64,000 nucleotides of DNA from Gammaproteobacteria bacterium (GTDB lineage: Bacteria > Pseudomonadota > Gammaproteobacteria > Steroidobacterales > Steroidobacteraceae). The notes below the pieces were generated by a model. The model worked only from the letters and a program-made list of their open reading frames with translations. It was not told the DNA's origin and made no database searches. The translations under genes were made by a program, and so were the position numbers. The stretch covers positions 1-64,000 of the forward strand of contig JAQGOG010000007.1 in NCBI GenBank assembly GCA_028293765.1, read 5' to 3'. Positions 9,108 through 27,051 of this stretch are shown here, piece after piece; positions within the stretch are counted from its first letter, which is position 1; each line of letters begins with the position of its first letter.

Positions 9108-9175
9108 TTGACGCGCCGCGCTTGCAGTGCTTATCCTGGGTCCGCATATAGGAACATGGTTCCGTATAAGCGAAC
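9108..9175 (+). promoter_or_regulatory. Promoter and 37-bp double operator, copy A (upstream of the IclR gene)
   Basis: A sigma-70-like promoter, TTGACG (9108-9113), 17 bp and TTATCC (9131-9136), is followed at 9139-9175 by two 17-bp near-palindromes, GGTCCGCATATAGGAAC and GTTCCGTATAAGCGAAC, whose starts are 20 bp apart. The same architecture occurs three more times in the window. An operator lying over the start site suggests repression. The position implies autoregulation of the IclR gene, although the leader would be about 390 bases long. Confidence 0.75.
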
Positions 9176-9536
9176 TGCGTCCACCCGTTATACGCCACGG
9201 CCCTGCGTAACCAACATAACGACCTCCGGCTTTACCCATGTCACGCAGGAGCATCTGAGCGGCGCGGCGCCTACAGTCATCTCCAGGCCAACCGCGGACA
9301 TCTGGCTTGAAGCGGCGACGAAGTTCCAGGGCGTTCAACGGCGGGAGGGAGCTCTTCGAGGCGGGGATCCCGCATCTGGCGCTGGGAAATTTGTTACTAT
9401 TGCACCGGCGGTCCACAGCAGGACCGCTTGCGATTAACATCCGACGGCATCGGCTGTGCTTGCGCGCCGCACGCGAGCGCAGGGCAGATTGCCGCAATCA
9501 GCAGGCATTTTCCACATCCGGGAGACATTGGCCGAC
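9176..9536 (+). other. Long leader between operator A and the IclR gene
   Basis: I recognise no gene here. The open frames on either strand have Arg/Ala-rich shadow composition and no ribosome site. It may be a 5' leader, or a second promoter closer to the IclR gene may lie within it. Confidence 0.4.
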
Positions 9537-10334
9537 ATGGCGCGCCGAGCGAAACAGGCTGACGAGGGAGGAACCAGGCTTTCGTCCGTTGCGAATGCGA
9601 TCCTCCTGATGAAAACCTTCTCCGACGAACAGAGCGAGTTGGGGATCAGCGCGCTGGCGGAGCGTCTTGGATTGGCAAAGAGTACGGTGCATCGGCTCGC
9701 CTCGACGCTGGTCGAGGCCGGCATGCTCGAGCAGAACAAGGAGACCGGCAAGTACCGTCTGGGCCTGGCGGTCTTCGAGCTGGGCTCGCTGGTGCGCCGT
9801 AAGATCGATATTTCATTCGAAGCGAAGCCCTGGCTGATGACGCTGCGCGAGCAGACCGGGGAGACCGTTGACCTGTCGATCCTCGATCACGGTGGCGTGG
9901 TCTGCGTCAACTTTCTCGAGAGCAAGAAAGTCAACCGCATCAGCTCAGGGATAGGATTGCGCAAGCCGGTGCATTGTACGGCGGAGGGCAAGGTCCTGAT
10001 CGCGTTCCAGCCGGCGGCGGCCATCGAGCGGATCATCGGCGGCAAGTTGGAGCGGCGTACGCCGCGGACCACGATCGATACGGGGACGCTCAAAGAGGAA
10101 CTTGCAACCATCCGGGCGCGCGGCTATGCCACCGATGACGAAGAATACGAACTCGGCGTGCGCAGCATCGCGGCGCCCATCAGCGACGACAGCGGCAATT
10201 CGGTCGCGGCCGTCGGCGTCACTGGCCCAACCCAGCGTTTGACGAAGAATCGGCTGCTGGGCATTGCTCGCTATGTTACCGATGCGGCCAAAGCGATCTC
10301 GTTGCGCCTCGGCGACCGGCCCCGGGTGATTTGA
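9537..10334 (+). CDS. IclR-family transcriptional regulator, likely controller of the 10.8-31.5 kb regulon
   Basis: I chose the ATG reading MARRAKQ because GGGAG precedes it; the frame remains open 27 codons further upstream. The 265-residue protein has an N-terminal winged helix (about residues 15-75) with the HTH ISALAERLGLAKSTVHRLAS. A C-terminal IclR effector domain follows (VCVNFLESKK, GLRKPVHCTAEGKVL, and YELGVRSIAAPI near residues 205-220). IclR proteins are often local repressors or activators of aromatic-acid catabolism. Copy A of the shared operator lies upstream of it, and copies B, C and D precede the three downstream transcription units, so it is the obvious candidate ligand-responsive repressor. 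That link is inference from position. Confidence 0.92.
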   Translation: MARRAKQADEGGTRLSSVANAILLMKTFSDEQSELGISALAERLGLAKSTVHRLASTLVEAGMLEQNKETGKYRLGLAVFELGSLVRRKIDISFEAKPWLMTLREQTGETVDLSILDHGGVVCVNFLESKKVNRISSGIGLRKPVHCTAEGKVLIAFQPAAAIERIIGGKLERRTPRTTIDTGTLKEELATIRARGYATDDEEYELGVRSIAAPISDDSGNSVAAVGVTGPTQRLTKNRLLGIARYVTDAAKAISLRLGDRPRVI

Positions 10335-10658
10335 CGCAGAGCGGGTGGACCCCTCGTGAAGCGGCGCATGCCGGCGGCGCGGGCGAGTTTGATGGATTGC
10401 AGCCGGCGCAAGCACCAATACGTGTGATACGCCCGGTTTGAGCCGCGATGACGCGCGGGTTCCCTGCTCGAGGGCCGCAACCGAGCGGCGCTTTTCCCGC
10501 GATATCCCGTCCGGAAATATTCCTTCGCGGCTTCCCGGTGCGCAGCTGCGCCCTGCTGCAGCCGCGCTGAGTAGCGAATCCTCGCGCAGGCAAACCCAGC
10601 GCAAACAAACCTCTGCGAAACGATCGTCGCACCGCGCGCGCCGCCGGCCGTACCCTGA
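10335..10658 (+). other. Gene-free stretch between the IclR gene and operator B
   Basis: No frame on either strand has a recognisable protein or ribosome site. Codon-position GC patterns look like shadow frames. No clear terminator was seen after the IclR stop. Confidence 0.4.
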
Positions 10659-10727
10659 TTGACAAGCCTTTGCGTCACTGCTAAAACTATGTTCAACATA
10701 CAAGAAAGATGTTCTGTATAGAGGAAC
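10659..10727 (+). promoter_or_regulatory. Promoter and 37-bp double operator, copy B (oxygenase operon)
   Basis: TTGACA (10659-10664), exactly 17 bp, and TAAAAC (10682-10687) form a good promoter. The operator at 10691-10727 consists of GTTCAACATACAAGAAA and GTTCTGTATAGAGGAAC with starts 20 bp apart, the same layout as copies A, C and D. It covers the expected transcription start. The first gene starts about 80 bases further on, with TAAGGATG before its GTG. Confidence 0.85.
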
Positions 10728-10805
10728 ATCGATCGGCAGCAGGTCGGCGAATCGAGAGTCCGCCCGACTAAGGCGCAATGCTTCTGCAATCGTAAGGATG
10801 AAGAC

Positions 10806-11162
10806 GTGTCGGCCGAAGTTCAGATTACCGGGGGCCCGCTTGTTGCATTGTGTGCTGCTGCCGATGTCCAGCCCGATGCACCGGTCCGAGTCGTGCAGGA
10901 CACCGAGGCTTACGCTGTGTTCAGCCTTGATGGGCGGTTCTACGCCACTCAGGACCAGTGTACTCACGGCCCCGGATCGCTAGCCGAAGGTTTCGTCGTG
11001 GGAGCCGAGATTGAATGTCCGTTCCACCAGGGACGGTTCGACATCCGCACGGGCTACGCCACAGCCGCGCCCTGTACCCAGGCCCTGAGAACGTGGACCG
11101 TGCACCCCATTGACGGACAGCTCTTCATCGATCCAACCGAGCATCGCGGAGTAGAGCGGTGA
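10806..11162 (+). CDS. Rieske-type ferredoxin of a ring-hydroxylating oxygenase
   Basis: The 118-residue protein is almost entirely a Rieske domain: CTHG (about residues 57-60) and CPFHQGRFD (about 76-84) supply the two Cys and two His ligands of the 2Fe-2S cluster. Such small ferredoxins carry electrons from an FAD reductase to the terminal oxygenase. It starts with GTG after TAAGGATG and its stop overlaps the next gene. It is the first gene after operator B, and the partner reductase and oxygenase are in the same unit. Confidence 0.93.
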   Translation: MSAEVQITGGPLVALCAAADVQPDAPVRVVQDTEAYAVFSLDGRFYATQDQCTHGPGSLAEGFVVGAEIECPFHQGRFDIRTGYATAAPCTQALRTWTVHPIDGQLFIDPTEHRGVER

Positions 11163-12430
11163 CTGGCGACTCAAGCGGTCAGAGCCCGAAAGCAGCGCTG
11201 GCGATCATCGGTTCCGGCCAGGCCGGCGGCCGTGCCGCCGAGGCTTTGCGTCTGGGCGGCTATGCGGGCCCGATCACAGTGATCGGCGATGAACCCCATC
11301 CGCCCTATGAGCGGCCGGCGCTATCGAAAGGTTTCCTGAGCGACGCCCGAGTGGAGCAGATTGCCTGGGTGCGGCCTCTAGCCTGGTATGCAGAGGCAGG
11401 CATCACGCTGTTACACGGCAGAAAAGCCATGCGCATCGATCGGGTGCACGGCGTGGTCGAATTGGATGACGGCTCGCGGATTGCTTACCGGACTCTGATC
11501 CTGACTACCGGTACGCGTCCGCGGCCGCTTACCGTGGAGGGCGCCGACCACCCGCTGTTGAGTTATCTGCGCACCATCGAGGATAGCCAGCGGCTGCAGC
11601 GGCGCTTACTGCCGGGCGCACATATCGTGGTGATAGGCGCCGGCTTCATTGGGATGGAAGTGGCGGCGAGCGCGCTGTCGCGCGGCTGCACGGTCACGGT
11701 GCTGGAGTTGGCGGACCTGCCGATGGCGCGCGGCGTGCCGTCTCTGCTCGGGGCGTTCTACGCCGATCTGCATCGTCAAAAGGGCGTTGCTCTGCGGACT
11801 TCTACCAGCGTTCGCCGCATCACCGACGCGAACGGTCGCGCGCTCGTCCACCTCGACAACGGGGAGGCGCGGCCGGCGGACGCGGTGGTTATCGGCATCG
11901 GCGTCATTCCCAACAGCGAGCTGGCGCAGACGGCCGGACTCGAGATCGACGACGGGATCGTCGTCGACCAATACGGCAGTACCGCCGATCCGCGGATCTA
12001 CGCGGCCGGTGACGTCAGCAGCCATTTCAACCCATTGCTCGGCCGCCGCATCCGCCTCGAATCGTGGCAGAACGCCCAGAACCAGGCGATCGCCGTGGCG
12101 CGGAACATCCTCGGCGCGGCCAAGCCGTACGCCGAAGTGCCGTGGTTCTGGAGCGATCAGTTCGATTTGAATCTGCAGATCGCGGGCGTTCCCCAGCCTG
12201 GCGACGAACTCGTCCAGCGCGGCATCCTCGGCAGCGGTCCGGTCGTGTTTTTCCATCTGCGTGACGGCAAGCTCGTGGCCGCCATCGGTATCAACAGGGC
12301 CGCCGATGTCCGTTTCGGCAAAGAAATCATCGCCATGGGCGGCCACGTCAGCGCCGCCGAACTGGCCGATCCAGCTATCAGTCTGGCCAGTATCTGTGGC
12401 GCCCTCAAACGTGCAGCACAGGCTGCCTGA
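11159..12430 (+). CDS. FAD-dependent NAD(P)H:ferredoxin reductase
   Basis: The 423-residue protein matches class III oxygenase reductases (BphA4/RedA type). An N-terminal FAD-binding motif IIGSGQAGGRAAE (about residues 16-28) is followed by YERPALSKGFL, a second dinucleotide motif VVIGAGFIGMEVAASA (about 158-173) for NAD(P)H, and IYAAGDVSSHFN near residue 285 in the FAD domain. It should reduce the Rieske ferredoxin encoded immediately upstream; the GTG start overlaps that gene's stop as GTGA. This ferredoxin plus FAD-reductase pairing differs from classical phthalate dioxygenase, which uses a single FMN/2Fe-2S reductase. Confidence 0.93.
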   Translation: MTGDSSGQSPKAALAIIGSGQAGGRAAEALRLGGYAGPITVIGDEPHPPYERPALSKGFLSDARVEQIAWVRPLAWYAEAGITLLHGRKAMRIDRVHGVVELDDGSRIAYRTLILTTGTRPRPLTVEGADHPLLSYLRTIEDSQRLQRRLLPGAHIVVIGAGFIGMEVAASALSRGCTVTVLELADLPMARGVPSLLGAFYADLHRQKGVALRTSTSVRRITDANGRALVHLDNGEARPADAVVIGIGVIPNSELAQTAGLEIDDGIVVDQYGSTADPRIYAAGDVSSHFNPLLGRRIRLESWQNAQNQAIAVARNILGAAKPYAEVPWFWSDQFDLNLQIAGVPQPGDELVQRGILGSGPVVFFHLRDGKLVAAIGINRAADVRFGKEIIAMGGHVSAAELADPAISLASICGALKRAAQAA

Positions 12431-12447
12431 CACAGGAGCAGGTCATC

Positions 12448-13440
12448 TTGTCGAAGCTCAAGCTGTCCGTCGCGATGGGCAACTACGATCGGACCCGGCC
12501 GCTGGTGGACGGCGACGTGCAGATCGACGGTACGGATCCGATCTATCTGCTGCTCTCGCCGGAAGAGATGTTCTTCCGTGCCTTCCGCAACACGGCGTTC
12601 GATGTCAGCGAGCTGTCGCTCAGCAGTTTTGCCGTCAAGACCGCCGCCGGAACCAATCCCTACGTGGGCGTGCCGGTATTTCCCTCGCGCGCGTTCCGCC
12701 ATACCTCGATCTGCATCCGGACCGACCGCGGCATCCGCAATCCGGCCGACCTGAAGGGACGGCGCATTGGCGCGCCGGAATATCAGTTGACCGCCTGTGT
12801 TTGGGCGCGCGCGCTGCTGCAGGAAGAATACGGCGTCAGTCCGTCTGACATTACCTGGGTCCGCGGCGGCATGGAGCATCCGGGCCGCCCGGAGAAGATT
12901 TCGCTGCAGTTGCCGGCGGCTATCCGCGTCGAGACGGCACCGGAAGATGTCACGTTGTCGCAACTGCTCGAGCGGGGTGAGATCGATGGCATCATCGGCC
13001 CGCGCGCGCCTTCCTGTTTCGAGGCGGGAAACCCGCGGGTCGGCTGGCTTTTCCCCGATCCGGCGCGCGCGGCGGCCGATTATTTCCGCAGGACCGGGAT
13101 TTTCCCGATCATGCACGTCCTCGGTGTCCGTCGCGAGCTTGCGGATCAGCATCCGTGGCTGCCCATGGCTTTATACAAGGCGTTTGCCGCAGCCAAGAGC
13201 ATCGCGCTTGCGGGCCTCGTCGATACCTCAGCCACCAAGGTGACACTGCCCTTCGTCGAGGAGCAGTTGCGCGCCGCGCGCACCCTGATGGGTCCGGATT
13301 TCTGGTCCTACGGCTTTGTGTCGAACCGCAACGTTCTCGACAACTTTCTCCACCATCACCATGCGCAAGGTCTCTCCAAACGCCGGTTGCAGGTCGAGGA
13401 GTTGTTCCATCCGTCCACGCTTGAAGAGCACAAGATCTGA
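12448..13440 (+). CDS. 4,5-dihydroxyphthalate decarboxylase-like / periplasmic-binding-fold protein, copy 1
   Basis: The 330-residue protein resembles the Pht5-type 4,5-dihydroxyphthalate decarboxylase family, which shares the fold of NMT1/SsuA-like substrate-binding proteins. It has the family pattern AFDVSELSLSSF (about 50-61), VGVPVFPSRAFRH, and RGIRNPADLKGRRIGAPEY (about 95-113). It has no signal peptide and starts directly with SKLKLSVAMGNYD, so a cytosolic enzyme is more likely than a transport protein. The start is TTG after AGGAGC. A homologue lies three genes downstream. By pathway logic it would decarboxylate a dihydroxylated aromatic acid; this is unproven. Confidence 0.8.
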   Translation: MSKLKLSVAMGNYDRTRPLVDGDVQIDGTDPIYLLLSPEEMFFRAFRNTAFDVSELSLSSFAVKTAAGTNPYVGVPVFPSRAFRHTSICIRTDRGIRNPADLKGRRIGAPEYQLTACVWARALLQEEYGVSPSDITWVRGGMEHPGRPEKISLQLPAAIRVETAPEDVTLSQLLERGEIDGIIGPRAPSCFEAGNPRVGWLFPDPARAAADYFRRTGIFPIMHVLGVRRELADQHPWLPMALYKAFAAAKSIALAGLVDTSATKVTLPFVEEQLRAARTLMGPDFWSYGFVSNRNVLDNFLHHHHAQGLSKRRLQVEELFHPSTLEEHKI

Positions 13441-13460
13441 CGAACCGATTGGAGCGGCAA

Positions 13461-14747
13461 GTGCTTAGAAAAGAACAGAATGACCTGCTGACGCAAACCG
13501 GCCCGGAAACCGCGATGGGCGCCATGTTCCGCAGCTACTGGCTTCCGGCCCTGCTGTCGGAGGAGCTGCCGGAGAACGACTGCGCACCGGTGCGGGTGAA
13601 ACTGCTGGCGGAGAGTCTGATCGCGTTCCGCGATTCCGAGGGACGCTATGGCCTGATCAGCGAGTTCTGCGCCCACCGCGGCGTCTCGCTGTGGTTCGGG
13701 CGTAATGAGGAAGGGGGTATCCGCTGCGCCTATCATGGATGGAAATACGACGTCACCGGTCAGTGCATCGATGTGCCGTCCGAACCCTCGGAGAACGGCT
13801 TCTGCCAGCGCATCAAGCTGAAGAGCTATCCGCTGGTCGAGCAGGGCGGGGTGCTGTGGACCTATATGGGCGCTCGCGAGAAACAGCCGCCGCTGCCGGA
13901 ATTCGAGTTCTCCGTGGTGCCCGCCTCGCAGAGCTTCACCTCGAAGCGCCTGCAGGAATGCAACTGGCTGCAGGCCATGGAAGGCGGCATCGATTCGAGC
14001 CATGTGTCTTGGCTGCATCGCGGCAACCTCAACAGCGACCCGCTGTTCAAAGGAGCCAAGGGCAACCAATACAACCTGAACGATGTAAAGCCGGTGTTCG
14101 AAGTGGTGCCGTCCGATGGCGGCCTGCTCATCGGCGCGCGGCGCAATGCCGAGCAAGGCAACTACTACTGGCGCATAACGCCCTGGGTAATGCCGTGTTT
14201 CACCATGGTGCCGCCGCGCGGCGACCATCCGGTGCACGGCCATTTCTGGATTCCAATCGACGACGAGAGCTGCTGGGCCTGGAGTTTCGACTACCACCCT
14301 GTGCGCGCGCTCAGCGCGGAAGAGCTGCAGGCGATGCAGGCCGGAAAGGGCGTTCACGTCGCCACCATTGCGGGTACTTACCTGCCGCTCGCCAACAAGG
14401 GCAACAATTACCTGATGGATCGCGCCGCACAGAAAGCCGGGCGCGCCTACAGCGGCATCGACGGCATCGGTATGCAGGACGCTTCCCTGCAGGAGAGCAT
14501 GGGGTCGATCGCCGACCGGACCAGAGAGAACCTGAGCTCGACCGACAATGGCATCGTCATGGCGCGGATGCGCCTGCTAAAAGCGGCCAAGGCGCTGGCG
14601 GAGAAGGGCGAGACGCCCCCAGGCGTCGATCCCGCGCACCATCGCGTGCGTTCCGCTGCCGTGATCCTGGCGCCTGATCGGCCCTTCGCCCAAGCGGCCA
14701 AGGATGCGCTGACGGTCCGGCCCGGCCAGCCCCAGGCTTCGGTCTGA
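13461..14747 (+). CDS. Rieske aromatic oxygenase, large subunit, phthalate 4,5-dioxygenase type
   Basis: I start it at GTG 13461 (MLRKEQNDLLTQTGPETAMG), since family members begin MLxxEENxLLTxTGPGTPMG and GGAG lies 8 bases upstream; the frame is open a few codons more. The 428-residue protein has the Rieske ligands CAHRG (about 73-77) and CAYHGWKYD (about 92-100). The mononuclear-iron motif is EGGIDSSHVSWLHRG (about 175-189). No small beta subunit is encoded, as in the homomultimeric phthalate, vanillate and chlorobenzoate oxygenases. It should hydroxylate or demethylate an aromatic acid, fed by the ferredoxin and reductase of the same operon. Confidence 0.93.
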   Translation: MLRKEQNDLLTQTGPETAMGAMFRSYWLPALLSEELPENDCAPVRVKLLAESLIAFRDSEGRYGLISEFCAHRGVSLWFGRNEEGGIRCAYHGWKYDVTGQCIDVPSEPSENGFCQRIKLKSYPLVEQGGVLWTYMGAREKQPPLPEFEFSVVPASQSFTSKRLQECNWLQAMEGGIDSSHVSWLHRGNLNSDPLFKGAKGNQYNLNDVKPVFEVVPSDGGLLIGARRNAEQGNYYWRITPWVMPCFTMVPPRGDHPVHGHFWIPIDDESCWAWSFDYHPVRALSAEELQAMQAGKGVHVATIAGTYLPLANKGNNYLMDRAAQKAGRAYSGIDGIGMQDASLQESMGSIADRTRENLSSTDNGIVMARMRLLKAAKALAEKGETPPGVDPAHHRVRSAAVILAPDRPFAQAAKDALTVRPGQPQASV

Positions 14748-14780
14748 AAGCGCGGGTGAGGCTCGTGCCGCGCAACGGCA

Positions 14781-15080
14781 ATGTTGGGACTTCCGAAAAA
14801 AGGTGCGGATCACCTGCAGGCCGTCGAGCGAGTGGCCCAGCAAACGCGCGCGCGCTTCAGGCTCGGGCAGGAGTTGGTCGTGCTGGTGGCGGAGATCGCC
14901 TGTTCCGTGCCGGGCTGTCCGCCACTGGAGACGGTAGTGGTGTTCTGGACGGCAGCCGGCGTGCGCCACCGTTTCAAGATCTTCAAGGCGGTGAGCGGGA
15001 TCACCGCAGAGGATCTGCCATACGACTGGCTGATGCGCTCTCTGGCCGCGCCGGAAGGGTTCGACGCCGACTGTTGCTGA
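14781..15080 (+). CDS. Small conserved-looking protein with CC terminus, function unknown
   Basis: The 99-residue protein has no domain I recognise. It contains LVAEIACSVPGCPPLETVVVFW in the middle and ends in DADCC, so four of its Cys sit as CxxxxC and CC. The charged, regular sequence (HRFKIFKAV, EDLPYDWLMRSL) and the position inside the operon argue for a real protein. No strong ribosome site is seen. It could be a metal-binding helper for the oxygenase, but nothing in the sequence shows that. Its 3' end is 47 bases before the next gene. Confidence 0.75.
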   Translation: MLGLPKKGADHLQAVERVAQQTRARFRLGQELVVLVAEIACSVPGCPPLETVVVFWTAAGVRHRFKIFKAVSGITAEDLPYDWLMRSLAAPEGFDADCC

Positions 15081-15127
15081 GCGGGCCTGACATGTCGGGA
15101 GGCGCCGCGCCATGAAGGAATTTCGTG

Positions 15128-16075
15128 ATGACTGAACGCATATTGAAGACCGCGTTGCAGACACTGGGGCATACCCGGGCGCTCAAGGACGGCAGCGTGC
15201 GGCCGGCGGGTTTCGAGTTCGAGTTCGCAGAGGTGCCGGCCATCATCGAGGCGTTCCGGCGGATGGTGCGTGGACTCGAATTCGATGTCAGCGAGATGGC
15301 GCTCACCACCTATCTGTGCGCCCGCTCCCATCACAAGTCTTTCACGGCATTGCCGATCTTCCTGGTGCGCGGCTTTCATCATGGCGCCATCCTCTACAAC
15401 ACCAGGCTGGGCATCCGCAGTCCCAAGGACCTCGAAGGCAGGAAGGTCGGCGTGAACCGCGGCTACACGGTTACCACGGGCGTGTGGGCGCGCAGCATCC
15501 TGCAGCATGAGCATGGCGTCGATCTGCACAAGATCACCTGGGTGCTGTCGGGCGACGAACACGTCGCGGAGTTTCAGGCGCCGCCCAATGTCGTGTCCAA
15601 TGAAACAGGCACGACGTTGGAACAACTGTTGGCGGCCGGTGAAATCGCCGCCGCCATCGGCGTGCAGGTGGAACATCCGGATGTGGCGCACCTCATTCCT
15701 GACTCCGGGGACGTGGGTTTCCGCGAGCTGGCGCGCAGCGGCCACTACCCGATCAATCACGTATTGGTGGTCAAGGATGCCACGCTGGAATCCCATCCGG
15801 AGTTCGCCGTACGGATTTTCGAAGCCTTTGCCGAAGCGAAGCGGCCTTATCTGGAGCGCTTGCGTGCGGGCCAGATCGCCGCACCATCCAAGGTTGATCG
15901 CCTGTATCGCCGGGTGTTGGAAGTGACCGGTAGGGACCCCTTGCCCTATGGCATCGCGCCCAACCGCCAGATGCTGGAAGCACTCATCCGCTACGCCGGG
16001 GAGCAGCAGATCATTTCCCGGCCGTTCGCAGTCGAGGAACTATTTGCGTCGGGCACTGCAGGGTTGGCGGCGTGA
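15128..16075 (+). CDS. 4,5-dihydroxyphthalate decarboxylase-like / periplasmic-binding-fold protein, copy 2
   Basis: The 315-residue protein is a diverged paralogue of the protein at 12448-13440. It shares GLEFDVSEMALTTYL, the LPIFLVRGFHHG segment, RLGIRSPKDLEGRKVGVN (about 92-109) and the downstream GVWARSILQHEHGV. No signal peptide is visible. GTG at 15125 directly precedes the ATG I chose, with AAGGA at the right distance. Two such paralogues in one operon may act on successive carboxylates, may form a heteromeric enzyme, or one may be a binding protein; the sequence does not separate these. Confidence 0.8.
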   Translation: MTERILKTALQTLGHTRALKDGSVRPAGFEFEFAEVPAIIEAFRRMVRGLEFDVSEMALTTYLCARSHHKSFTALPIFLVRGFHHGAILYNTRLGIRSPKDLEGRKVGVNRGYTVTTGVWARSILQHEHGVDLHKITWVLSGDEHVAEFQAPPNVVSNETGTTLEQLLAAGEIAAAIGVQVEHPDVAHLIPDSGDVGFRELARSGHYPINHVLVVKDATLESHPEFAVRIFEAFAEAKRPYLERLRAGQIAAPSKVDRLYRRVLEVTGRDPLPYGIAPNRQMLEALIRYAGEQQIISRPFAVEELFASGTAGLAA

Positions 16076-16112
16076 TCCGCAGGCGCCCGGCGTCGCCCAA
16101 CAAGGAGAGCTC

Positions 16113-16955
16113 ATGAATCCGGAAAATGCCGCGCTCACCATTCCCGCGCTGAAGCTGATGAAGGCCGATGGCCGCAAGATCGTCGGCGTCGTCGTGTGGG
16201 ACTACCAACTCGCGCAGATCGTGGACCGCGCCGGAGTGGACATCGTCTCGGTCGGCGACACGGTGGGTGTCAACCTATGGGGCCAGGCCAGCCCACTGGA
16301 AGTCACTCTGGAAGAGATGCTGATCGTTTGCAAGGCCGTGCGGCGCGGAGTGAAGCGCGCGCTGCTGAGCTGCGACTTCCCGTATGGGCCGCTGCAAGAG
16401 GGTACTGATGCTGCTGTGCGGGCGGCCATCAAGCTGGTCAAAGAGGCGGGCGTCGACATGATCAAGCTCGACGGAGCCGCGGATTTCCCGGAGGCGGTAC
16501 GAGCGCTGGCCCGCGCTGGCATTCCGGTCTTTGCCCAATTCGGCATCACGCCGCAGACGGCGCTGCAGTACGGCATCCCTTATGCCGCAGCCTCCAGAGC
16601 GGGCGCGGTTGTGCCGGCAGAGATGACGGCGCGGCTGCTCGAGGAGGCGAGGCGACTGGAAAGCGCGGGCGCGTCCCTGCTCGACTTTACCAACTCGGGG
16701 CCGGTTGCCGGGCCAGCGGTTGCAAAAGCGGTCAGCATCCCGGTAATCGGCGGATTCGGCGGCGGTCCTTGGCTGGATGGCCGAATGCGGATGGCCCACG
16801 CCGCGATCGGCTATGCGGCTAGTTCGATCGATTCGCCGGTCGATGGCTACGCCAATGTGGCCCGCATCACGCTCGATGCGATTTCGGCCTACGCCTCCGA
16901 CGTGCGCGCCGCACGCCAGATCAAGGGCGCGGCGCCCATCAACCCGACCACCTAA
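16113..16955 (+). CDS. PanB-like protein (ketopantoate hydroxymethyltransferase family)
   Basis: I chose the ATG after CAAGGAGAG (MNPENAALTIPALKL). The 280-residue TIM-barrel protein follows the PanB layout: KIVGVVVWDYQLAQIVDRAGVD, the metal/substrate segment VSVGDTVGVNLWG (near residues 48-60), then VKEAGVDMIKLDG (Lys and Glu/Asp near 115) and QFGITPQTA in place of the GHxGLTPQ of true PanB. PanB adds a one-carbon unit from methylene-tetrahydrofolate to ketoisovalerate for pantothenate. The altered motif, and a place inside a catabolic operon with no panC, suggest a different aldol or retro-aldol reaction. Confidence 0.8.
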   Translation: MNPENAALTIPALKLMKADGRKIVGVVVWDYQLAQIVDRAGVDIVSVGDTVGVNLWGQASPLEVTLEEMLIVCKAVRRGVKRALLSCDFPYGPLQEGTDAAVRAAIKLVKEAGVDMIKLDGAADFPEAVRALARAGIPVFAQFGITPQTALQYGIPYAAASRAGAVVPAEMTARLLEEARRLESAGASLLDFTNSGPVAGPAVAKAVSIPVIGGFGGGPWLDGRMRMAHAAIGYAASSIDSPVDGYANVARITLDAISAYASDVRAARQIKGAAPINPTT

Positions 16956-16968
16956 AGCGCGGTCCGCC

Positions 16969-17909: not shown

Positions 17910-18059
17910 ATAAAGAATCAAACCGGACTGCGCAGGGCGCCTTCAGCCCCACGGCGGGTGGTACGAGCCACGCGCGCTGCCAGTCAGCTAAGGAGGAGAC
18001 GACTACGTTGCCTTGCGAGAAGCCTGCGTCGTGTCCGGCATGGATGGCGGGATCCCGAA

Positions 18060-19811
18060 ATGGCCGGTGAGCCAGACCCGCCTGTCGGGCGCGCTCATGC
18101 GCTGCAAGACCATGCGCTCGGGCGGGAAGTCAGTCATACCCATGAATCGGGCGCCTCGTATGACCACGATCACGATGACTTCGATTCGCAGGGTCCGCTC
18201 GAAGAAAATCCGATCTGGGTACAGGACCATGTTTCCCTGACCAGCGTCGGCATCGACATCGGCTCTTCCGGGACCCAGGTCATTTTCTCACGGGTGAATC
18301 TGCGCAGGCGGGGTGAGGCTCTGTCCAGCCACTATTGCGTCGTGTCGCGCGAAACGCTGTTCCAGTCACCAGTGGCGTTGACGCCCTATGAGAGCGACGA
18401 GCGCATCGACCAGAGTGCCCTTGGCGCGATCATCGACGAGGCCTACGACCTCGCCGGCATGGAGCCGGAGAAAGTCGACACCGGCGCCGTGATCCTGACC
18501 GGCGAGGCGCTGAGAAGAGAAAACGCCGAGGCCATCGCCGGCATTGTGGCGGAGCGCGGCGGTGACTTCGTCTGCGCCACGGCCGGTCACCATATGGAAG
18601 CGATGCTTGCGGCGTTCGGCTCGGGCGCGGCACGTGTATCCGCCGACGAAAGCAAGCGGCTGCTCAACATCGATATCGGCGGCGGCACCACCAAGCTTGC
18701 CATCATCGACTCTGGCCGCGTCGTCGCCACCGCTGCATTTCATGTCGGCGGACGCCTGCAGGTGGTCGATGGGAGCGGGCGCATAATCCGTCTCGATCCG
18801 GCCGGGCGTCGCCTGGCGGCTGACGCGGGTTTCTCCTGGTCTTGCGGTGACACGATAGCCTCTGCCGCCCTCGATGTTCTGGCCGAGTCCATGGCGGCCG
18901 TGGTGATCGCCGCGGTGTGTGAACGCAATCCACCGGCCGCTATCCGGAATCTCTACCTGACCGACCGCCTGCCCGATGTTGGTCGTATCGATGGAGTCAT
19001 GTTCTCCGGCGGCGTCGCCGAATACATCTATGGCAGGGAGACGCGCGATTTCGGGGATCTCGGCCGACGCCTCGGCGCCGCCCTGCAGCGCAAACTCGAG
19101 ACCGGGGCACTGCCGTGGCCGCTGCTGCCGGCTGGGGAATGCATTCGCGCCACCGCGCTGGGTGCGTCCGAATACACCGTGCAGCTCACCGGCAGCACAC
19201 TCTATATTTCAAACAACGGCGCGTTGCTACCGCGGCGGAATCTGCAGGTGCTGAAGCCGCGCTATGAATTGCCGGAAGCGATCGATCCGGAAGAGCTGGC
19301 GCGGGCGATTCGGCAACACCTGATGCTCTTCAACGTGGTCGAGGAGGACAGGGAAGTCGCGCTTGCCTTCCAGTGGCGCGGCGACCCGTCCTACGAACGG
19401 GTTGTCGCGCTTGCCCGTGGCATCGTCGCCGGGCTGGCGCGCACCATCGCGCGGAAAGCGCCGCTCTACCTGATTCTGGACGGGGATCTGGCGCAGACTC
19501 TGGGCGGCGTACTGCGCGAGGATCTCGGCGTCGACTCGGAGTTACTGGTGATCGACGGCGTCGCACTCGTGGATTTCGACTACATCGACCTGGGGAAGAT
19601 CCGGCTTCCATCGCGCACCGTGCCGGTAACCATCAAGTCACTGGTCTTCAACGACACCCCGCAGATCCAGCCGGCCCCACATCAGCACTCCGTTCACGAC
19701 CACTCCGACCATCACCATCACGGCCATGAGCACGGCGACCGCCACGATCATCACGTGGAGCACGGTCCAAACCTTGGCCAGCGTAACGAGAAAATGAGGC
19801 AGATCAGATGA
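18060..19811 (+). CDS. EutA-like reactivating-factor ATPase with poly-His C-terminus
   Basis: The 583-residue protein has the actin-like ATPase motifs of EutA: VGIDIGSSGTQVIFS (about 62-76), LNIDIGGGTTKLAII (about 203-217) and GVMFSGGVAEYIYG (about 315-328). EutA reactivates adenosylcobalamin-dependent ethanolamine ammonia-lyase by exchanging damaged cofactor, but no EutB or EutC is encoded in this window. Two His-rich stretches stand out: SHTHESGASYDHDHDD near residue 40, and about 20 His between residues 535 and 573. The ATG is the only normal start in frame. A much better ribosome site (AAGGAGGAG at 17990-17998) lies 62 bases upstream, leaving the true N-terminus uncertain. Confidence 0.85.
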   Translation: MAGEPDPPVGRAHALQDHALGREVSHTHESGASYDHDHDDFDSQGPLEENPIWVQDHVSLTSVGIDIGSSGTQVIFSRVNLRRRGEALSSHYCVVSRETLFQSPVALTPYESDERIDQSALGAIIDEAYDLAGMEPEKVDTGAVILTGEALRRENAEAIAGIVAERGGDFVCATAGHHMEAMLAAFGSGAARVSADESKRLLNIDIGGGTTKLAIIDSGRVVATAAFHVGGRLQVVDGSGRIIRLDPAGRRLAADAGFSWSCGDTIASAALDVLAESMAAVVIAAVCERNPPAAIRNLYLTDRLPDVGRIDGVMFSGGVAEYIYGRETRDFGDLGRRLGAALQRKLETGALPWPLLPAGECIRATALGASEYTVQLTGSTLYISNNGALLPRRNLQVLKPRYELPEAIDPEELARAIRQHLMLFNVVEEDREVALAFQWRGDPSYERVVALARGIVAGLARTIARKAPLYLILDGDLAQTLGGVLREDLGVDSELLVIDGVALVDFDYIDLGKIRLPSRTVPVTIKSLVFNDTPQIQPAPHQHSVHDHSDHHHHGHEHGDRHDHHVEHGPNLGQRNEKMRQIR

Positions 19812-20932
19812 CCCAGGATGCGATCGTTTCAGAAGAAATGGCGAAGAAATTCGCTACGGAAAAGGAATCTCCGTATACGAACTGGGTACGTGGCGAAGGA
19901 CTCGACATCATCAGTGCTCACTACATTGCGAACTTGCACACCGTCGAGCTGAAGCAGTGGGCGCGTCGTGGCGGCCGGGGCGTATACATCAACCACGAGG
20001 CGTCGCGGACGTCGAACGACTGTTACGTCTGCGAAATCCCGGCCGGCGGCAAGCTCGCTCCGCAGCGTCAGCTGTTCGAGGAAATGATCTACGTGCTGGA
20101 CGGACGGGGCTCGACCGCCGTCTGGAACGACGCCGGCCACAAAATTACCTTTGAATGGAACAAGGGATCGCTATTCGCCATCCCACTCAATTGCCACCAC
20201 CAGCACTTCAACGGCCAGGGTCTGGCGCCGGCGCGCTTCGTCGCCGTCACCAACGGCCCCGCCATCATCAATCTCTATGAAGAGATTGACTTCGTATTCA
20301 ACACCCGGCACGACTTCACGAATCGTTTCGCCGGGGAAGCCCACTACTTCTCCAACAAGGGCGAGCAGAAGGGCCTGCTGCTCGAGACGAACTTCGTCGC
20401 GGACGCCATCAACCTGCCTCTGATCAGCGCGAGGGAGCGCGGCGCGGGAGGCGGCCATATCCGCTTCAGCATGGCGAAGGGCTCGATGAACAGCCACATT
20501 TCCCAGTTCCCGGTCGCCACCTACAAGAAGGCGCACTGTCACGGGCCGGGCGCGCACGTGATCGTGATGAGCGGCGAGGGCTACACGCTGATGTGGCCCG
20601 AGGGTGAGGAGCCGCGCCGCTATGAGTGGCGGGAAGGCACCATGATCGTCCCGCCCAACCTCTGGTTCCACCAGCACTTCAACACGGGCACTACGCCAGG
20701 CCGTTATCTTGCGTTCAAGCACGAAGTCGTCTCGATCCGCAACGCGCAGGGCGTGCCAAAGGCCTGGATCAGCCGGCGCATCGGCGGCGACCAGATCGAC
20801 TATGCCGATGAAAAGCCGGTGGTTCGCAAGCTCTTCTGCGAGGCGCTGGCCAAGCGCGACATGACGCCGCGGATGGAAGAGGCGTACAAGGCCGAGCTGG
20901 CCGACCTGCCGCCGCCACGCAACGCCGTGTGA
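19808..20932 (+). CDS. Bicupin protein, probable metal-dependent dioxygenase or isomerase
   Basis: The 374-residue protein contains two cupin domains. The first has RQLFEEMIYVLDGRG and then AIPLNCHHQHFNG (about 85-140). The second has HCHGPGAHVIVMSGEG and then VPPNLWFHQHFNTG (about 240-300). Each motif 2 reads HQHFN, supplying a His ligand and an extra His two residues later. The gentisate dioxygenase family is also bicupin, so ring cleavage is one possibility. Its start overlaps the EutA-like stop (ATGA), so the two are coupled. It shares the HQHF motif with the two single cupins of unit 3. Confidence 0.85.
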   Translation: MTQDAIVSEEMAKKFATEKESPYTNWVRGEGLDIISAHYIANLHTVELKQWARRGGRGVYINHEASRTSNDCYVCEIPAGGKLAPQRQLFEEMIYVLDGRGSTAVWNDAGHKITFEWNKGSLFAIPLNCHHQHFNGQGLAPARFVAVTNGPAIINLYEEIDFVFNTRHDFTNRFAGEAHYFSNKGEQKGLLLETNFVADAINLPLISARERGAGGGHIRFSMAKGSMNSHISQFPVATYKKAHCHGPGAHVIVMSGEGYTLMWPEGEEPRRYEWREGTMIVPPNLWFHQHFNTGTTPGRYLAFKHEVVSIRNAQGVPKAWISRRIGGDQIDYADEKPVVRKLFCEALAKRDMTPRMEEAYKAELADLPPPRNAV

Positions 20933-20945
20933 CCCAGGCGCTTCT

Positions 20946-21557
20946 ATGCCCATCAGCGATGACCTTATCGAGGCTAGCGCGCCGGCGGATGCCTTGGTGC
21001 AACCGACAGTCGGGCTGCTCCCGCTTCTGGTTACTTTCGTGCGCCTGGGGACGATGACCTTCGGCGGCAGCGTCCAGTCCTGGGTGCATCGGGAAGTCGT
21101 GGAACGGCTCGGCTGGATTGACAACAAGGCGTTCCTCTCGGGCCTGACCGTGGCGCAGGTCCTTCCGGGTGCAAATCCGGTCAACCTCGCGCTTTACGTT
21201 GGGTTGCGACTGCGCGGCGCCGCCGGCGCCGCCGTCGCGGTATTCGGGATGATCGTGCCGGCCTTCTGCGTCACGCTGTGCCTCGGTTACTTGTATCGCA
21301 GCTATGGCCATCTGGCGGCGGTGCATTTCGTTTTGGTTGGATTGGCGGCCGCAGGCGTCGGTGCGACGCTCACCATGGCTATCAAGGTCGCGCGACGTTT
21401 GCCGCGCGATCTCATGACGGCGCTGATCGCGACGGCGGTGTTTGTCGTCGTCGGCCTGCTGCGCTGGCCCATGGTGCCGGTGGTACTGGTGGCGGTTCCT
21501 CTCAGCATCGCGATGGCATTCGTTCAGGAGAAGAGGAACGCGAGCTATGACGGGTAG
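20946..21557 (+). CDS. Chromate transporter-family (CHR) protein, N-terminal half-type
   Basis: The 203-residue membrane protein matches one half of ChrA: FVRLGTMTFGGSVQSWVHREVV (about 31-52), FLSGLTVAQVLPGANPVNLALYVG (about 62-85), then several hydrophobic segments. Short-chain CHR proteins act as pairs. Its end overlaps the second half by 11 bp. ChrA proteins export chromate by proton coupling, but many CHR members in catabolic or metal operons have no tested substrate. Here it sits between a cupin and an aldolase. Confidence 0.88.
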   Translation: MPISDDLIEASAPADALVQPTVGLLPLLVTFVRLGTMTFGGSVQSWVHREVVERLGWIDNKAFLSGLTVAQVLPGANPVNLALYVGLRLRGAAGAAVAVFGMIVPAFCVTLCLGYLYRSYGHLAAVHFVLVGLAAAGVGATLTMAIKVARRLPRDLMTALIATAVFVVVGLLRWPMVPVVLVAVPLSIAMAFVQEKRNASYDG

Positions 21558-22092
21558 CCGCCTGTTCGCGCTGCTGGTCGTGTTTGCGCCCGTGTCCATC
21601 CTTTCGTTCGGCGGCGGCCAGTCGACAATCCCGGAAATCCAACATCAGACGGTGGCCGTCCACGGCTGGCTGACCAACGAGCAGTTCGCCGACCTGTTCG
21701 CCATTGCGCGCGCTGCGCCCGGGCCTAGCACGCTGATCGTGGCTCTGATCGGTTGGCAGGTCTGCGGCTTTTTCGGTGCGGCAGTGGCGACACTCGCTAT
21801 TTTTGTGCCCTCGTCGATCGTGATGTACGCAGTCAGCGCGTGGTGGCTGCGCAACGACCAATCGGTGATCCGCAAGGCGATCGAGCGGGGGCTGGCGCCG
21901 GTCGCCGTCGGTCTGATCTTCGCTGGCGCCGTGATAGTGCTCAACGCTGCGCACGCGGGGCTCCTCGCCCTGGCGACCACGGCAGCCGTCTGTGCGCTTC
22001 AGAGCATGAGCAGGATCAGCACGTACACGACGGTGGCCGCCGTTGCCGCGACCTATCTGGTGCTGTTCGCCGTGTTTCAGGTTCCGGCCTGA
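21547..22092 (+). CDS. Chromate transporter-family (CHR) protein, second half of the pair
   Basis: I start at the ATG that overlaps the upstream stop (21547). The 181-residue protein is the partner half, with SILSFGGGQSTIPEIQHQTV (about 17-36), the conserved FAIARAAPGPSTLIVALIGWQVCG and at least four membrane spans. The two halves probably form an antiparallel heterodimer, as known for paired short-chain CHR proteins. Transport of an oxyanion or organic anion is possible; the context does not tell. Confidence 0.88.
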   Translation: MTGSRLFALLVVFAPVSILSFGGGQSTIPEIQHQTVAVHGWLTNEQFADLFAIARAAPGPSTLIVALIGWQVCGFFGAAVATLAIFVPSSIVMYAVSAWWLRNDQSVIRKAIERGLAPVAVGLIFAGAVIVLNAAHAGLLALATTAAVCALQSMSRISTYTTVAAVAATYLVLFAVFQVPA

Positions 22093-22128
22093 CGGATCCG
22101 TCAGGAAGCGCCGCTCAAAGGAAAATGA

Positions 22129-22992
22129 ATGTCCAAGCCTGACCGTCTCAACGGCATCATCCGTGCGCTCGAATCCGGTCAGCACGCGTTCACGCTTTTT
22201 GCGCCCTGCGAGGTCGAGTTCGCAGTCGAGCTGCAACAGTCGTTCTACGACGGCGTCGTCTTCGAGGGCGAACACCGCGGCTGGGACATCAAGGCCTTGC
22301 GCGACAGTTTGCAATACCTGCTCAATCGCCGTCAGATTGCCAGCGCCGACTCGGTCGCGCCGACGATCACCCCAACAGCGCGGATTCCTGCCAACGGCGC
22401 GGAGAAGAACCAGTTCCTGGCCAAGCAGGCGCTGGACCTCGGTTGCTACGGCATCGTGTGGCCTCACATCAGCACCGTCGAGGAGGCCTGCAACGCCATC
22501 GCCGCCTGTCGCTATCAGCGGCTTCGGGACAAGCCACTCTATGAGCCGGCCGGCATGCGCGGCGACGGACCGATGCAGGCAGTGCGCTATTGGGGCGTCT
22601 CCCAACAGGAATACTACGAACGGGCGGACGTATGGCCGCTCGTTCCACATGGCGAGATATTCGTCGTCCTGCAGATCGAAGACACGCTGGGTATCCGCAA
22701 TCTCCCGGATATTCTCGACAACGTCCCGGGCATCGGCGCGATCCTGATCGGAGAGGGCGACTTGAGTCAGGAGCTCGGGTACCCGCGCCAGACGGAGCAC
22801 GAGGTCGTCCTCGATGCGATGGCCGAAGTTGTCGCGATCTGCAAGAAGCGGGGCGTCGTCGTCGGTCACCCGCACGTCACGCCTCAAAACGCGGAGCGTG
22901 TCGTCGCTGAGGGCTATCGCTATCTCATGTGCGCGGCGCCGCGCAGCTTCGCCAATCTACGCGAGGCGCGCAGTCTCGTCGGCCGGGAGTGA
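22129..22992 (+). CDS. HpcH/HpaI-family aldolase or citrate lyase-like protein
   Basis: The 287-residue protein belongs to the HpcH/HpaI fold: LFAPCEVEFAVELQQSFYDGVVFEGEH (about 24-50), a metal-ligand segment VVLQIEDTLGIRNL (about 181-194) and ILIGEGDLSQELG (about 205-217). The last motif corresponds to IGPNDLS in HpaI. These class II aldolases split 4-hydroxy-2-oxoacids into pyruvate and an aldehyde, usually as the last step of meta-cleavage pathways. It follows AAGGA with a short spacing to ATG. In this operon it would deliver central metabolites. Confidence 0.88.
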   Translation: MSKPDRLNGIIRALESGQHAFTLFAPCEVEFAVELQQSFYDGVVFEGEHRGWDIKALRDSLQYLLNRRQIASADSVAPTITPTARIPANGAEKNQFLAKQALDLGCYGIVWPHISTVEEACNAIAACRYQRLRDKPLYEPAGMRGDGPMQAVRYWGVSQQEYYERADVWPLVPHGEIFVVLQIEDTLGIRNLPDILDNVPGIGAILIGEGDLSQELGYPRQTEHEVVLDAMAEVVAICKKRGVVVGHPHVTPQNAERVVAEGYRYLMCAAPRSFANLREARSLVGRE

Positions 22993-23039
22993 GGGCGGCG
23001 CACCGTCCTTGGATCTCATCAAATTGCAGGAGTAAGCTC

Positions 23040-24146
23040 GTGGAAAAAGTACTTGCCTCGGTGAAGGTTGGTGCCGGCAAACTGGAGCTGCGCGATTTTC
23101 CAATGCCGCAGATCGATGCGGAGAGCGCGCTTCTGAAGATGGCGGTCGCCGGCATCTGCGGCACCGACGTCAAGATGTTCAAGCAGCCGTTGTCCGGCGG
23201 CCCGGTCATCATGGGCCATGAAAACATCGGCTATATCGCCAAGGCCGGCCGCAAGTTCACCGAGCGCAAGGGCGTCAACGAAGGCGATCTGGTCTTCATC
23301 GAACACTACGTGCCGTGTTTCAAGTGCGAGTGGTGCCATCGCGGCGAGTATCGTCACTGCGTCGCCACCGACTGGCGCTCCAATCCGGACGGCCGGCGCT
23401 ATGGCTATACAACGTCGGACAATCCCTACCACCTGTGGGGCGGCTTTGCGCAGTACGCCTACTTGCCCTGGAATGCAGTGGTCCACAAGGTGCCGGCCGG
23501 AGTTACGCCGGAGCTGGCCGGAATCGTGACGCCCCTGTCGAACGGCATCGAGTGGGCCCTGTTCGACTCGCAGGTCGGCTATGCCTCGAGAGTGCTCATC
23601 CAGGGCCCGGGCCAACAGGGCCTGTCGCAGATCGTGGCCTGCAAGCAGGCCGGCGCGGACCTGATCATCGTCACCGGCACCACAAAGGATGCCAAGCGCC
23701 TGGAGATCGCCAAGGTCCTCGGCGCGGACCATGTCATCGATGTGCAGAAGGAAGATCCGCTGGCCCGCATCGCGGCGATCACCGGCGGCGAAGGCGTCGA
23801 CGTGGCGCTCGACTGCACGGCGGGCGCCGGCACGGCGCCGGTCCTGTTGGGGGTCGAGGCCCTGAAACGCAAGGGCGGCACGCTTCTGATCCAGGGAGAA
23901 ATGACCGACTTCCCGAATTTCCCGATCGGCAAGGTGACGGTGAAATACATCACCATCAAGAGTGCCCGGGGCCACAGCTACCGCGCCTGCGAACTGGCGC
24001 TACAACAGCTCGCCTCGCAGCGCTTCCCGCTGGAACTCGTGACGACGCATACCTTCGGGCTCGCCGAAGCCGAATATGCGATCAAGTCGGTCGGCAACGA
24101 GGGGGCGAAGGACGTCATCCACGTTTCACTGCTGCCGTGGAAGTAA
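23040..24146 (+). CDS. Zinc-dependent alcohol dehydrogenase, MDR family
   Basis: I start at GTG 23040 (VEKVLASVKVGAGKL) after AGGAG; upstream codons in frame overlap the aldolase gene. The 368-residue protein has the catalytic zinc ligands in GICGTD and MGHENIGY (about 40-65). The four Cys of the structural zinc lie in CFKCEWCHRGEYRHC (about 94-108). The cofactor region reads VLIQGPGQQGLSQIVACK. It should be a cytosolic NAD(P)-dependent dehydrogenase, perhaps oxidising a cis-dihydrodiol or an alcohol from ring cleavage. Confidence 0.92.
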   Translation: MEKVLASVKVGAGKLELRDFPMPQIDAESALLKMAVAGICGTDVKMFKQPLSGGPVIMGHENIGYIAKAGRKFTERKGVNEGDLVFIEHYVPCFKCEWCHRGEYRHCVATDWRSNPDGRRYGYTTSDNPYHLWGGFAQYAYLPWNAVVHKVPAGVTPELAGIVTPLSNGIEWALFDSQVGYASRVLIQGPGQQGLSQIVACKQAGADLIIVTGTTKDAKRLEIAKVLGADHVIDVQKEDPLARIAAITGGEGVDVALDCTAGAGTAPVLLGVEALKRKGGTLLIQGEMTDFPNFPIGKVTVKYITIKSARGHSYRACELALQQLASQRFPLELVTTHTFGLAEAEYAIKSVGNEGAKDVIHVSLLPWK

Positions 24147-24168
24147 GGCATCCGCCAGGACGTCGTCC

Positions 24169-25176
24169 ATGAGCGAACGCATTCCCGTCATGGTCCTGAC
24201 CGGCTATCTGGGCGCCGGCAAGACCACGCTGCTCAATCGCATCCTGTCCGGCGATCACGGCCGGCGCTATGCGGTCATCGTCAACGAGTTCGGCGAGATC
24301 GGCGTCGACAACGAGCTGATCCTGAGCGCCGAGGAAGAGCTCTTTGAGATGAGCAACGGCTGCATCTGCTGCACGGTGCGTGGCGATCTGATCCGCACCC
24401 TGCATCAGCTGCTCTCGGGGTCCGGCACTTTCGATTGCATCGTGATCGAGACGACGGGCATCGCCGATCCGGGCCCGGTGGTGCAAACGTTCTTTGTCGA
24501 CCCTTTCCTGCAGGCCAGGACGTTCGTCGATTCGGTCACCACCGTGGTGGACGCTCGGCATATCGGTCTGTGCCTGGCGAGCAGCTCCGAGGCCATCGAG
24601 CAGATTGCCTTTGCCGACCAGATCGTCCTCAACAAGACGGAGCTGGTCACCGCCGAGGAGTTGCGGCTCATCGAAGCGCGGCTGAGAAAGCTGAGCCCGC
24701 TTGCGCCGATCCATCGCGCGCAGCGGGCCGATGTGGCCCTCGACAAGCTCCTGGGGCGCCGCAGCTTCGACATCCAACATATCCTCTCGCTGGAGCCGGA
24801 CTTCCTCGATCCGGCTCATGACGAGGCAGCACACGTGCACGACGAGCACTGTCTCGATCATGACCATGATCACGACAGCAGCATTTCGAGTGTGTCCCTG
24901 ATCTCGCATACTCCGGTCGATGGTGCGCGGCTCACCGTCTGGCTCAACGATCTGGTGGCCACGGGTGGGCGGGACATCCTGCGCGCCAAAGGAATTTTCG
25001 ACGTGAAGGACGAAGAGCGGCGCCTGGTCTTTCAGAGCGTCCATATGCTGCTGGAAGGTGACTTTCAGCGTCAGTGGCGCGCGGCTGAGCGCCGCTACAG
25101 CAGAGTCGTCTTCATTGGCAGAAAACTCGACAGGCAGGCGCTCCATTTGGGACTGGTGTGGTGTGAGGCGGCTTGA
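24169..25176 (+). CDS. CobW-family GTPase / metallochaperone with His-rich loop
   Basis: The 335-residue protein has the G3E GTPase motifs: Walker A GYLGAGKTT (about 10-18), the metal-binding CICC in SNGCICCTVRG (about 63-73), ETTGIADPGP (about 92-101) and NKTEL for base recognition. A linker around residues 220-240 carries HVHDEHCLDHDHDHD. A CobW C-terminal domain follows. CobW-type proteins hand cobalt, zinc or another metal to enzymes. With the NiCoT permease and two other His-tailed proteins of the regulon it suggests dedicated metal delivery. It is the last gene of unit 2. Confidence 0.92.
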   Translation: MSERIPVMVLTGYLGAGKTTLLNRILSGDHGRRYAVIVNEFGEIGVDNELILSAEEELFEMSNGCICCTVRGDLIRTLHQLLSGSGTFDCIVIETTGIADPGPVVQTFFVDPFLQARTFVDSVTTVVDARHIGLCLASSSEAIEQIAFADQIVLNKTELVTAEELRLIEARLRKLSPLAPIHRAQRADVALDKLLGRRSFDIQHILSLEPDFLDPAHDEAAHVHDEHCLDHDHDHDSSISSVSLISHTPVDGARLTVWLNDLVATGGRDILRAKGIFDVKDEERRLVFQSVHMLLEGDFQRQWRAAERRYSRVVFIGRKLDRQALHLGLVWCEAA

Positions 25177-25309
25177 TGAGCTTACATACGCTGGGCCCAC
25201 GATGAGTTCGCCCGTACCTCAGGCATACGATGATCGACAATCAGCACGGCACCTTATGCAACTTCGACTTCAGCGGCGCGGCGAGGTCTTCGCAGCCCGC
25301 CGTGCGCGC

Positions 25310-25377
25310 TTGACGTGCCGGAGCAACGTCGCTACAGTCTGTTCACTATACAGGAAATACGTTCCATATAAAAGAAC
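25310..25377 (+). promoter_or_regulatory. Promoter and 37-bp double operator, copy D (transporter-cupin unit)
   Basis: TTGACG (25310-25315), 17 bp and TACAGT (25333-25338) form the promoter. The operator at 25341-25377 is GTTCACTATACAGGAAA and GTTCCATATAAAAGAAC, starts 20 bp apart. It lies in the 317-bp gap between the CobW and TctA-type genes and confirms that the transporter and cupin genes are a separate, co-regulated unit. Confidence 0.87.
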
Positions 25378-27035: not shown

Positions 27036-27051
27036 CGACAGGGGTCATCGA

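Follow-up and report, generated by a model that had tools for sequence, protein, structure and literature searches.

The four double operators and their locus

The window analyzed here is a stretch of 64,000 nucleotides (positions 1 to 64,000 of contig JAQGOG010000007.1, assembly GCA_028293765.1) from a gammaproteobacterium of the family Steroidobacteraceae. It contains a gene for an IclR family regulator (9537-10334), three predicted transcription units, and four 37-bp double operators, each composed of two 17-mers, all on the plus strand. Operator 1 (9139-9175, with the tandem 17-mers GGTCCGCATATAGGAAC and GTTCCGTATAAGCGAAC) lies upstream of iclR, and operators 2 (10691-10727), 3 (17873-17909), and 4 (25341-25377) lie in front of unit 1 (10806-17847), unit 2 (17958-25176), and unit 3 (25494-28642), respectively. 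We propose, with a probability of about 0.88, that the local IclR protein binds the four tandem operators, represses transcription by covering the start sites, and is released by a compound of the pathway.

A preliminary description of this DNA had reported the double operators and their spacing, and all eight 17-mers were indeed located, with starts exactly 20 bp apart in all four pairs. The form GTTC-N3-ATA-N3-GAA(A/C) that it had given for them is exact in seven cases, including all of operators 2 to 4, while the 17-mer at 9139-9155 has one mismatch and starts with GGTC. The center consists of A/T in all eight 17-mers, and the end is GAAC in five and GAAA in three of them. Only these motif letters are common to the four operators; the filler letters differ, and layout and orientation are alike. 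An inverted-repeat search of the four operator regions found nothing, probably because the arms comprise only 4-5 bp.

Many matches elsewhere in the genome had been named beforehand as the outcome that would speak against a regulon. A scan of the genome itself (6,639,219 bases, 6.64 Mb, in 211 contigs) with up to three mismatches found the 37-bp pattern at these four places alone, all on the plus strand, and the reversed control gave no match; the scan thus does not refute the regulon. The single 17-mer has nine exact matches in the genome, seven of them within the four operators (reversed control: one). With up to two mismatches, it has 23 matches in the window compared to 11.0 +/- 3.2 in shuffled sequences, and loose single 17-mers are therefore about twice as frequent as expected by chance. 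A weak double-operator match with three mismatches in another genome (G010) was rejected as a chance match, as the reversed control yields two in the same 196 genomes.

Promoters at the operators

Each of the four operators is preceded by TTGAC(A/G), starting at 9108, 10659, 17844, and 25310. The predicted promoters are P1 (9108-9137, -35 box TTGACG at 9108-9113 and -10 box TATCCT at 9132-9137), P2 (10659-10687, TTGACA and TAAAAC), P3 (17844-17872, TTGACA and TAGTGT, overlapping the end of the hydrolase open reading frame (ORF) of unit 1), and P4 (25310-25338, TTGACG and TACAGT), all on the plus strand. The preliminary description had postulated a 17-bp spacer throughout, which fits P2, P3, and P4, while P1 is better described with TATCCT and a spacer of 18 bp. 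At 17-bp spacing the -10 hexamers end 2, 3, 0, and 2 bp ahead of operators 1 to 4, and because each operator thus begins 0-3 bp after the -10 hexamer, the operators cover the predicted start sites. The window has TTGAC(A/G) at 25 places on its plus strand, the four promoters among them, which makes the chance of finding it in a given slot of four positions about 0.0016 per operator. A scan with the sigma-70 consensus between 8900 and 28800 revealed four sites, P1 and P4 among them, compared to 3.6 expected ones and thus without any excess. Nothing about the promoters stands out when they are viewed as sigma-70 matches; it is their position that is unusual.

The local IclR protein

The likely start codon of iclR is the ATG at 9537, although the listed ORF begins at 9456. 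The encoded protein exceeds the curated cut-offs of both domains of the family, PF09339 (HTH_IclR, 57.8 bits, cut-off 22) and PF01614 (IclR_C, 158.5 bits, cut-off 24). All nine NCBIfam matches to named equivalogs (BhcR, KdgR, PcaR/PcaU/PobR, IclR, AllR) fall under their cut-offs, the best being BhcR with 188.3 versus 350 bits, so that no curated name applies to this member of the family. Seven proteins of the genome, including this one, match IclR_C.

Relatives were drawn from 84,980 species genomes (34 loci) and 72,556 plasmids (26 records, of which 15 were used), and a set of 52 loci, three of them taken for their oxygenase, was analyzed for the co-occurrence of regulator and site. Exact GTTC-N3-ATA-N3-GAAC is present in 13/13 loci with an IclR protein of 47.8-87% identity and in 0/39 loci with at most 41% identity. 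The recognition stretch (A/S)KST(V/A)HRL is common to the window IclR and the 13 site-bearing relatives; it was found in none of the 36 site-less loci with alignments shown (49 of the 52 loci had alignments), and in none of the six other IclR family proteins of the genome. That one of these six paralogs, or a regulator encoded elsewhere in the genome, binds the sites is very improbable. The paralogs have different recognition helices, no exact 17-mer is present within 1.3-1.5 kb around each of their genes, and across genomes the 17-mer tracks the IclR protein of the window. The preliminary description had ascribed the sites to the local IclR protein, which is thus borne out by co-conservation in distant bacteria, by the recognition helix, and by uniqueness in the genome, and judged from these sequence comparisons the four operators very likely belong to the neighboring iclR gene.

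Conservation of regulator and operators in other bacteria

The closest relative is encoded on a 3.3-kb contig of a Nevskia metagenome-assembled genome (locus L007), and its IclR protein is 87% identical to that of the window. The start of the protein alignment agrees with ATG 9537, and at the nucleotide level iclR aligns over window positions 9478-10318, thus including about 59 nt upstream of the ATG. Downstream of iclR the contig carries a perfect double operator behind TTGACA, again with 20-nt spacing, and the next gene runs off the contig end. Beyond iclR, only the stretch with the -10 box and operator 2 aligns below E 1e-5 (window 10678-10727 with L007 3123-3172, 78% over 50 nt). For the porin-like gene that precedes iclR in L007, the window offers no counterpart (best match E 3.7).

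On plasmids of Caballeronia, Sinorhizobium, Rhizobium, and Phyllobacterium the sites are found among orthologs of the catabolic genes of the window. In all seven operator-linked loci the oxygenase is 72.7-75.5% identical to that of the window, and the five mapped loci encode the dehydrogenase (44-71%, five loci), the EutA-like protein (41%, two loci), and TctA (38-47%, four loci). Ten plasmid records (10.0 Mb) contain 21 exact 17-mers, 18 of them within IclR neighborhoods; the reversed control gives three, which equals the number of strays. TTGAC precedes the downstream 17-mer by 42-52 nt in 21 of 25 sites of relatives, with the orientation chosen by eye. On two annotated Neorhizobium plasmids the IclR ortholog resides in another gene cluster, and the site sits shortly before iclR, in the gap to a divergent gene of the major facilitator superfamily (MFS), with TTGAC pointing toward the MFS gene. 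Because the site stays with iclR in a different gene cluster, it follows the regulator and not the pathway.

The shared layout and orientation of all four copies would also be expected if they were non-regulatory repeats, spread by duplication of a single segment. Yet the motif letters are the only ones in common, amid differing filler letters, the copies precede orthologous genes in other proteobacterial classes, and against L007 the other intergenic DNA gives no alignment, so that this explanation is hardly credible.

A close IclR ortholog was found neither at E 1e-60 among 195 further genomes of this genus, family, and order, nor at E 1e-68 among 397 other genomes of the phylum; both limits are strict, and an ortholog of about 48% identity might escape, more so at E 1e-68. 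This absence in the sampled genomes suggests that the cluster has probably been acquired.

Proposed mechanism of regulation

The local IclR protein would bind each tandem operator. With site centers 20 bp apart, two dimers would probably sit on the same face of the DNA as a tetramer. The bound protein would cover the predicted transcription start and in this way keep RNA polymerase out. Its release would be brought about by a substrate or an intermediate of the encoded pathway, an aromatic carboxylic acid being the likeliest candidate, and the units for the oxygenase, for EutA, cupin, and aldolase, and for TctABC uptake would then be expressed together, possibly along with iclR itself. We infer repression from the overlap of the operators with the predicted start sites, and release by a pathway compound from the behavior of the IclR family.

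PcaU and PobR are activators. It is therefore conceivable that the same IclR protein acts on the same sites as an activator or dual regulator, with a ligand turning the bound protein on. Some IclR regulators of aromatic catabolism do activate, and the references listed in PMC8222616 include PbaR as an activator. However, the operators are situated downstream of the -10 box at all four window promoters, a position suited to repression, and activation thus seems unlikely. Judged from the sequences, one regulon under one regulator that acts as a repressor is most likely.

Several points weigh against this proposal. As some members of the family activate, repression is deduced from operator position. 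P2 and P3, with their weaker -10 boxes TAAAAC and TAGTGT, were not picked up by the sigma-70 consensus scan, and of the 25 sites of relatives two are without an upstream TTGAC and two have it at 57 nt. In 5/13 loci the sites are within the neighborhood and yet more than 2 kb away from iclR. The relatives are phylogenetically non-independent, and one plasmid record with an IclR protein of 50% identity (H10) is outside the 15 of 26 records examined. A distance of 361 nt separates operator 1 from the likely start of iclR downstream, and L007 has no operator between iclR and the upstream gene, so that operator 1 is not a fixed feature. The long leader, the only mismatched 17-mer, and the missing counterpart in L007 make autoregulation through operator 1 the least secure part of the proposal.

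Comparison with known IclR systems

The motif of the GTT-11-AAC subgroup of group 1 is the 17-bp palindrome GTTYCRYW3RYGRAAC (Suvorova and Gelfand 2021, PMC8222616). The 17-mers of the window match 12-15 of its 17 letters, and the downstream 17-mers of 14 sites of relatives match 13-17. Tandem sites 18-22 nt apart are reported for 94 orthologous groups of IclR regulators (PMC8222616), and the centers are 20 nt apart in all four window operators and in L007. The tandem 20-nt arrangement has been related to IclR family tetramers in the same article, which cites the TtgV-operator structure for tetramer binding. Operator motif and tandem layout are thus of an already published kind, and the regulon is a further example. 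It differs in that many COGs of aromatic metabolism are reported there to be underrepresented in the GTT-11-AAC subgroup, whereas the regulon of the window looks aromatic.

TtgV of Pseudomonas putida, which has been solved with operator DNA (2xro), is a sequence relative of the window IclR (entries 2xrn/2xro). However, TtgV controls efflux pumps, and the likeness is one of sequence only. IphR of the isophthalate operon of Comamonas sp. E6 (Table 1 of PMC8222616) is likewise an IclR family protein, and the window cluster encodes an oxygenase that resembles isophthalate dioxygenase. Nevertheless, the IphR site GTCTCATCAGAC with the half-site ATGGAC is another motif, from which the letters of the window operators differ by eye; this comparison concerns the motifs. 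PheR of Sphingobium, an IclR family repressor with a 44-bp footprint from +23 to -21, is derepressed by a pathway substrate, but its motif GCAACG and its pathway differ from those of the window (PMC13273656).

The transcription units and the likely substrate

The preliminary description had placed three catabolic units behind the operators. The three sets of genes are present, but the third begins with a transporter, and the word catabolic applies loosely to it. Unit 1 comprises seven ORFs encoding a Rieske ferredoxin (10806-11162), a ferredoxin reductase (11159-12430), a 4,5-dihydroxyphthalate-decarboxylase-like protein (12448-13440; match to 9jp7, E 1.7e-143), an isophthalate-dioxygenase-like oxygenase (13449-14747), a second decarboxylase-like protein, which is a weaker relative (15125-16075; E 2.1e-36), a PanB-like protein (ending at 16955), and an alpha/beta hydrolase (ending at 17847). 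Unit 2 encodes a EutA-like protein (starting at 17958 or 18060, the start being uncertain, and ending at 19811), a cupin (19808-20932), two half-size chromate transporters (CHR, 20946-22092), an HpaI-type aldolase (22129-22992), a zinc alcohol dehydrogenase (ending at 24146), and a CobW GTPase (ending at 25176). Unit 3 encodes a tripartite tricarboxylate transporter, namely TctA (25494-27035), TctB (27052-27561), and TctC (27554-28642). It might extend over four further ORFs (28721-31520), encoding two cupins (28721-29305 and 29337-29903), a protein without an assigned family (29995-30411), and a NicO nickel transporter (30414-31520). All of these ORFs are on the plus strand.

The EutA-like protein belongs to the family of ethanolamine ammonia-lyase reactivases, here in an aromatic-type cluster, and is found beside a cupin in Phyllobacterium too. 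The consecutive half-size CHR proteins are paired likewise in the Phyllobacterium cluster. In addition, a NicO-type transporter is present near the end of the window cluster, and the Phyllobacterium cluster has a NicO relative together with nikR, which hints at a nickel-dependent step.

With isophthalate dioxygenase of C. testosteroni KF1 (9ina), the oxygenase shares 212 of 402 residues (53% identity). Residue numbers were converted with an offset of 23, deduced from ten residues, all letters of which agree with PMC12445078. The carboxylate-binding residues R234 and H257 of isophthalate dioxygenase are both kept. The pocket residue F249 is replaced by an arginine (R257) in the window and in 7/7 operator-linked relatives, while it is Phe in the three relatives without this IclR (L056-L058); among the ten relatives compared, the exchange thus tracks with the IclR operator clusters. 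F249H together with V178A has been reported to let isophthalate dioxygenase accept other phthalate isomers (PMC12445078). The isophthalate-type oxygenase, the relatives of dihydroxyphthalate decarboxylase, and the tricarboxylate-type transporter tentatively point to an aromatic di- or tricarboxylate as the substrate of the regulon. The regulon connects the three units, i.e., oxygenase, EutA-like/cupin/aldolase, and tripartite transporter, as parts of one probable pathway. This helps to confine the range of possible substrates, and the regulator is a possible sensor for aromatic polycarboxylates.

Half-sites of the operators

Read as half-sites, the operator is GTTC-N9-GAAC-N3-GTTC-N9-GAAC (boxes 1 to 4). 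Each tandem was counted once, via its downstream 17-mer, and L052 19447, a lone 17-mer without tandem partner or promoter, was omitted. The sites of the relatives had been found through the 17-mer, which biases its conservation, whereas no such selection acted on boxes 1 and 2. In the 25 sites of relatives box 2 holds 4.8 bits and box 1 holds 1.5 bits; for the five sites of the window and L007 the values are 4.6 and 4.6. As the relatives include near-duplicates (three from Sinorhizobium, five from Neorhizobium, and two from Caballeronia), a set of 14 non-redundant sites was made. In this set the match to GAAC at box 2 is 3.36 of 4 and that to GTTC at box 1 is 2.07, with backgrounds of 1.04 and 0.96, and because the largest GTTC background value is 1.86, box 1 is barely above background.

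The state of box 1 is related to the distance of the promoter. Where TTGAC precedes the downstream 17-mer by 49-52 nt, eight of the nine sites (the five of the window and L007 and four from Caballeronia) have exactly GTTC as box 1. At 42-46 nt, where the -10 box falls on box 1, this is true for none of 17 sites, all from rhizobia, and with TTGAC at 57 nt or absent for none of four sites, all from Caballeronia.

The other register, an inner GGAA-N3-TTCC palindrome, was also considered; the IclR box of E. coli (Table 1 of PMC8222616) is similar. Compared with TGRAACAN1-2TGTTYCA, the motif of three-box (group 2) IclR operators, the inner pair of each of the four operators agrees at 10-13 of 15-16 letters (0.63-0.81), while the 95th and 99th percentiles of random stretches are 0.62 and 0.69. 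Both registers appear to be present, and the 17-mer is the most conserved unit in the relatives.

Three-box sites have been described for 32 IclR groups, with alternative dimerization offered as a possible explanation (PMC8222616). We tentatively suggest, as a possibility that is rather doubtful, that three-box sites are two-dimer tandem operators that have given up the outermost half-site, here upon collision with the -10 box, and that the regulon serves an aromatic tricarboxylate, e.g., trimellitate. A trimellitate-type substrate is suggested by the oxygenase, in which an arginine is present in addition to the two retained carboxylate-binding residues. If such a decay of tandem operators were true, three-box sites would need no second mode of dimerization. 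Two Caballeronia sites with an intact box 1 and a weak box 2 (ATAC, ACAC) speak against it, as do the four Caballeronia sites that lost box 1, which collision with the -10 box does not explain because TTGAC is at 57 nt or absent; moreover, the sites behind the suggestion are not independent. Literature searches on the motif letters and on the gene combination retrieved nothing relevant, which does not prove that they are unpublished; the relation between box 1 and promoter distance and the extra arginine of the oxygenase may be new. With its single regulator, its four near-identical operators, and natural relatives in which the outer half-site is degenerate, this small and clean regulon could be a test bed for the usage of half-sites by IclR tetramers.

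Flanking genes

The cluster is bordered by a gene for a SerC protein of the TIGR01365 type (7770-8951, minus strand). At E 1e-80 a protein of this type was found in only one of 12 other relatives, and in none of the eight same-genus genomes among them, and therefore serC may have been acquired, too. The cluster is followed by genes for an extracytoplasmic function (ECF) sigma factor, a FecR-like protein, and a TonB-dependent receptor of 1158 amino acids (31617-37141), possibly an uptake system. Further downstream are the genes for a LysR regulator (40207-41118) and a multicopper oxidase (41922-43880).

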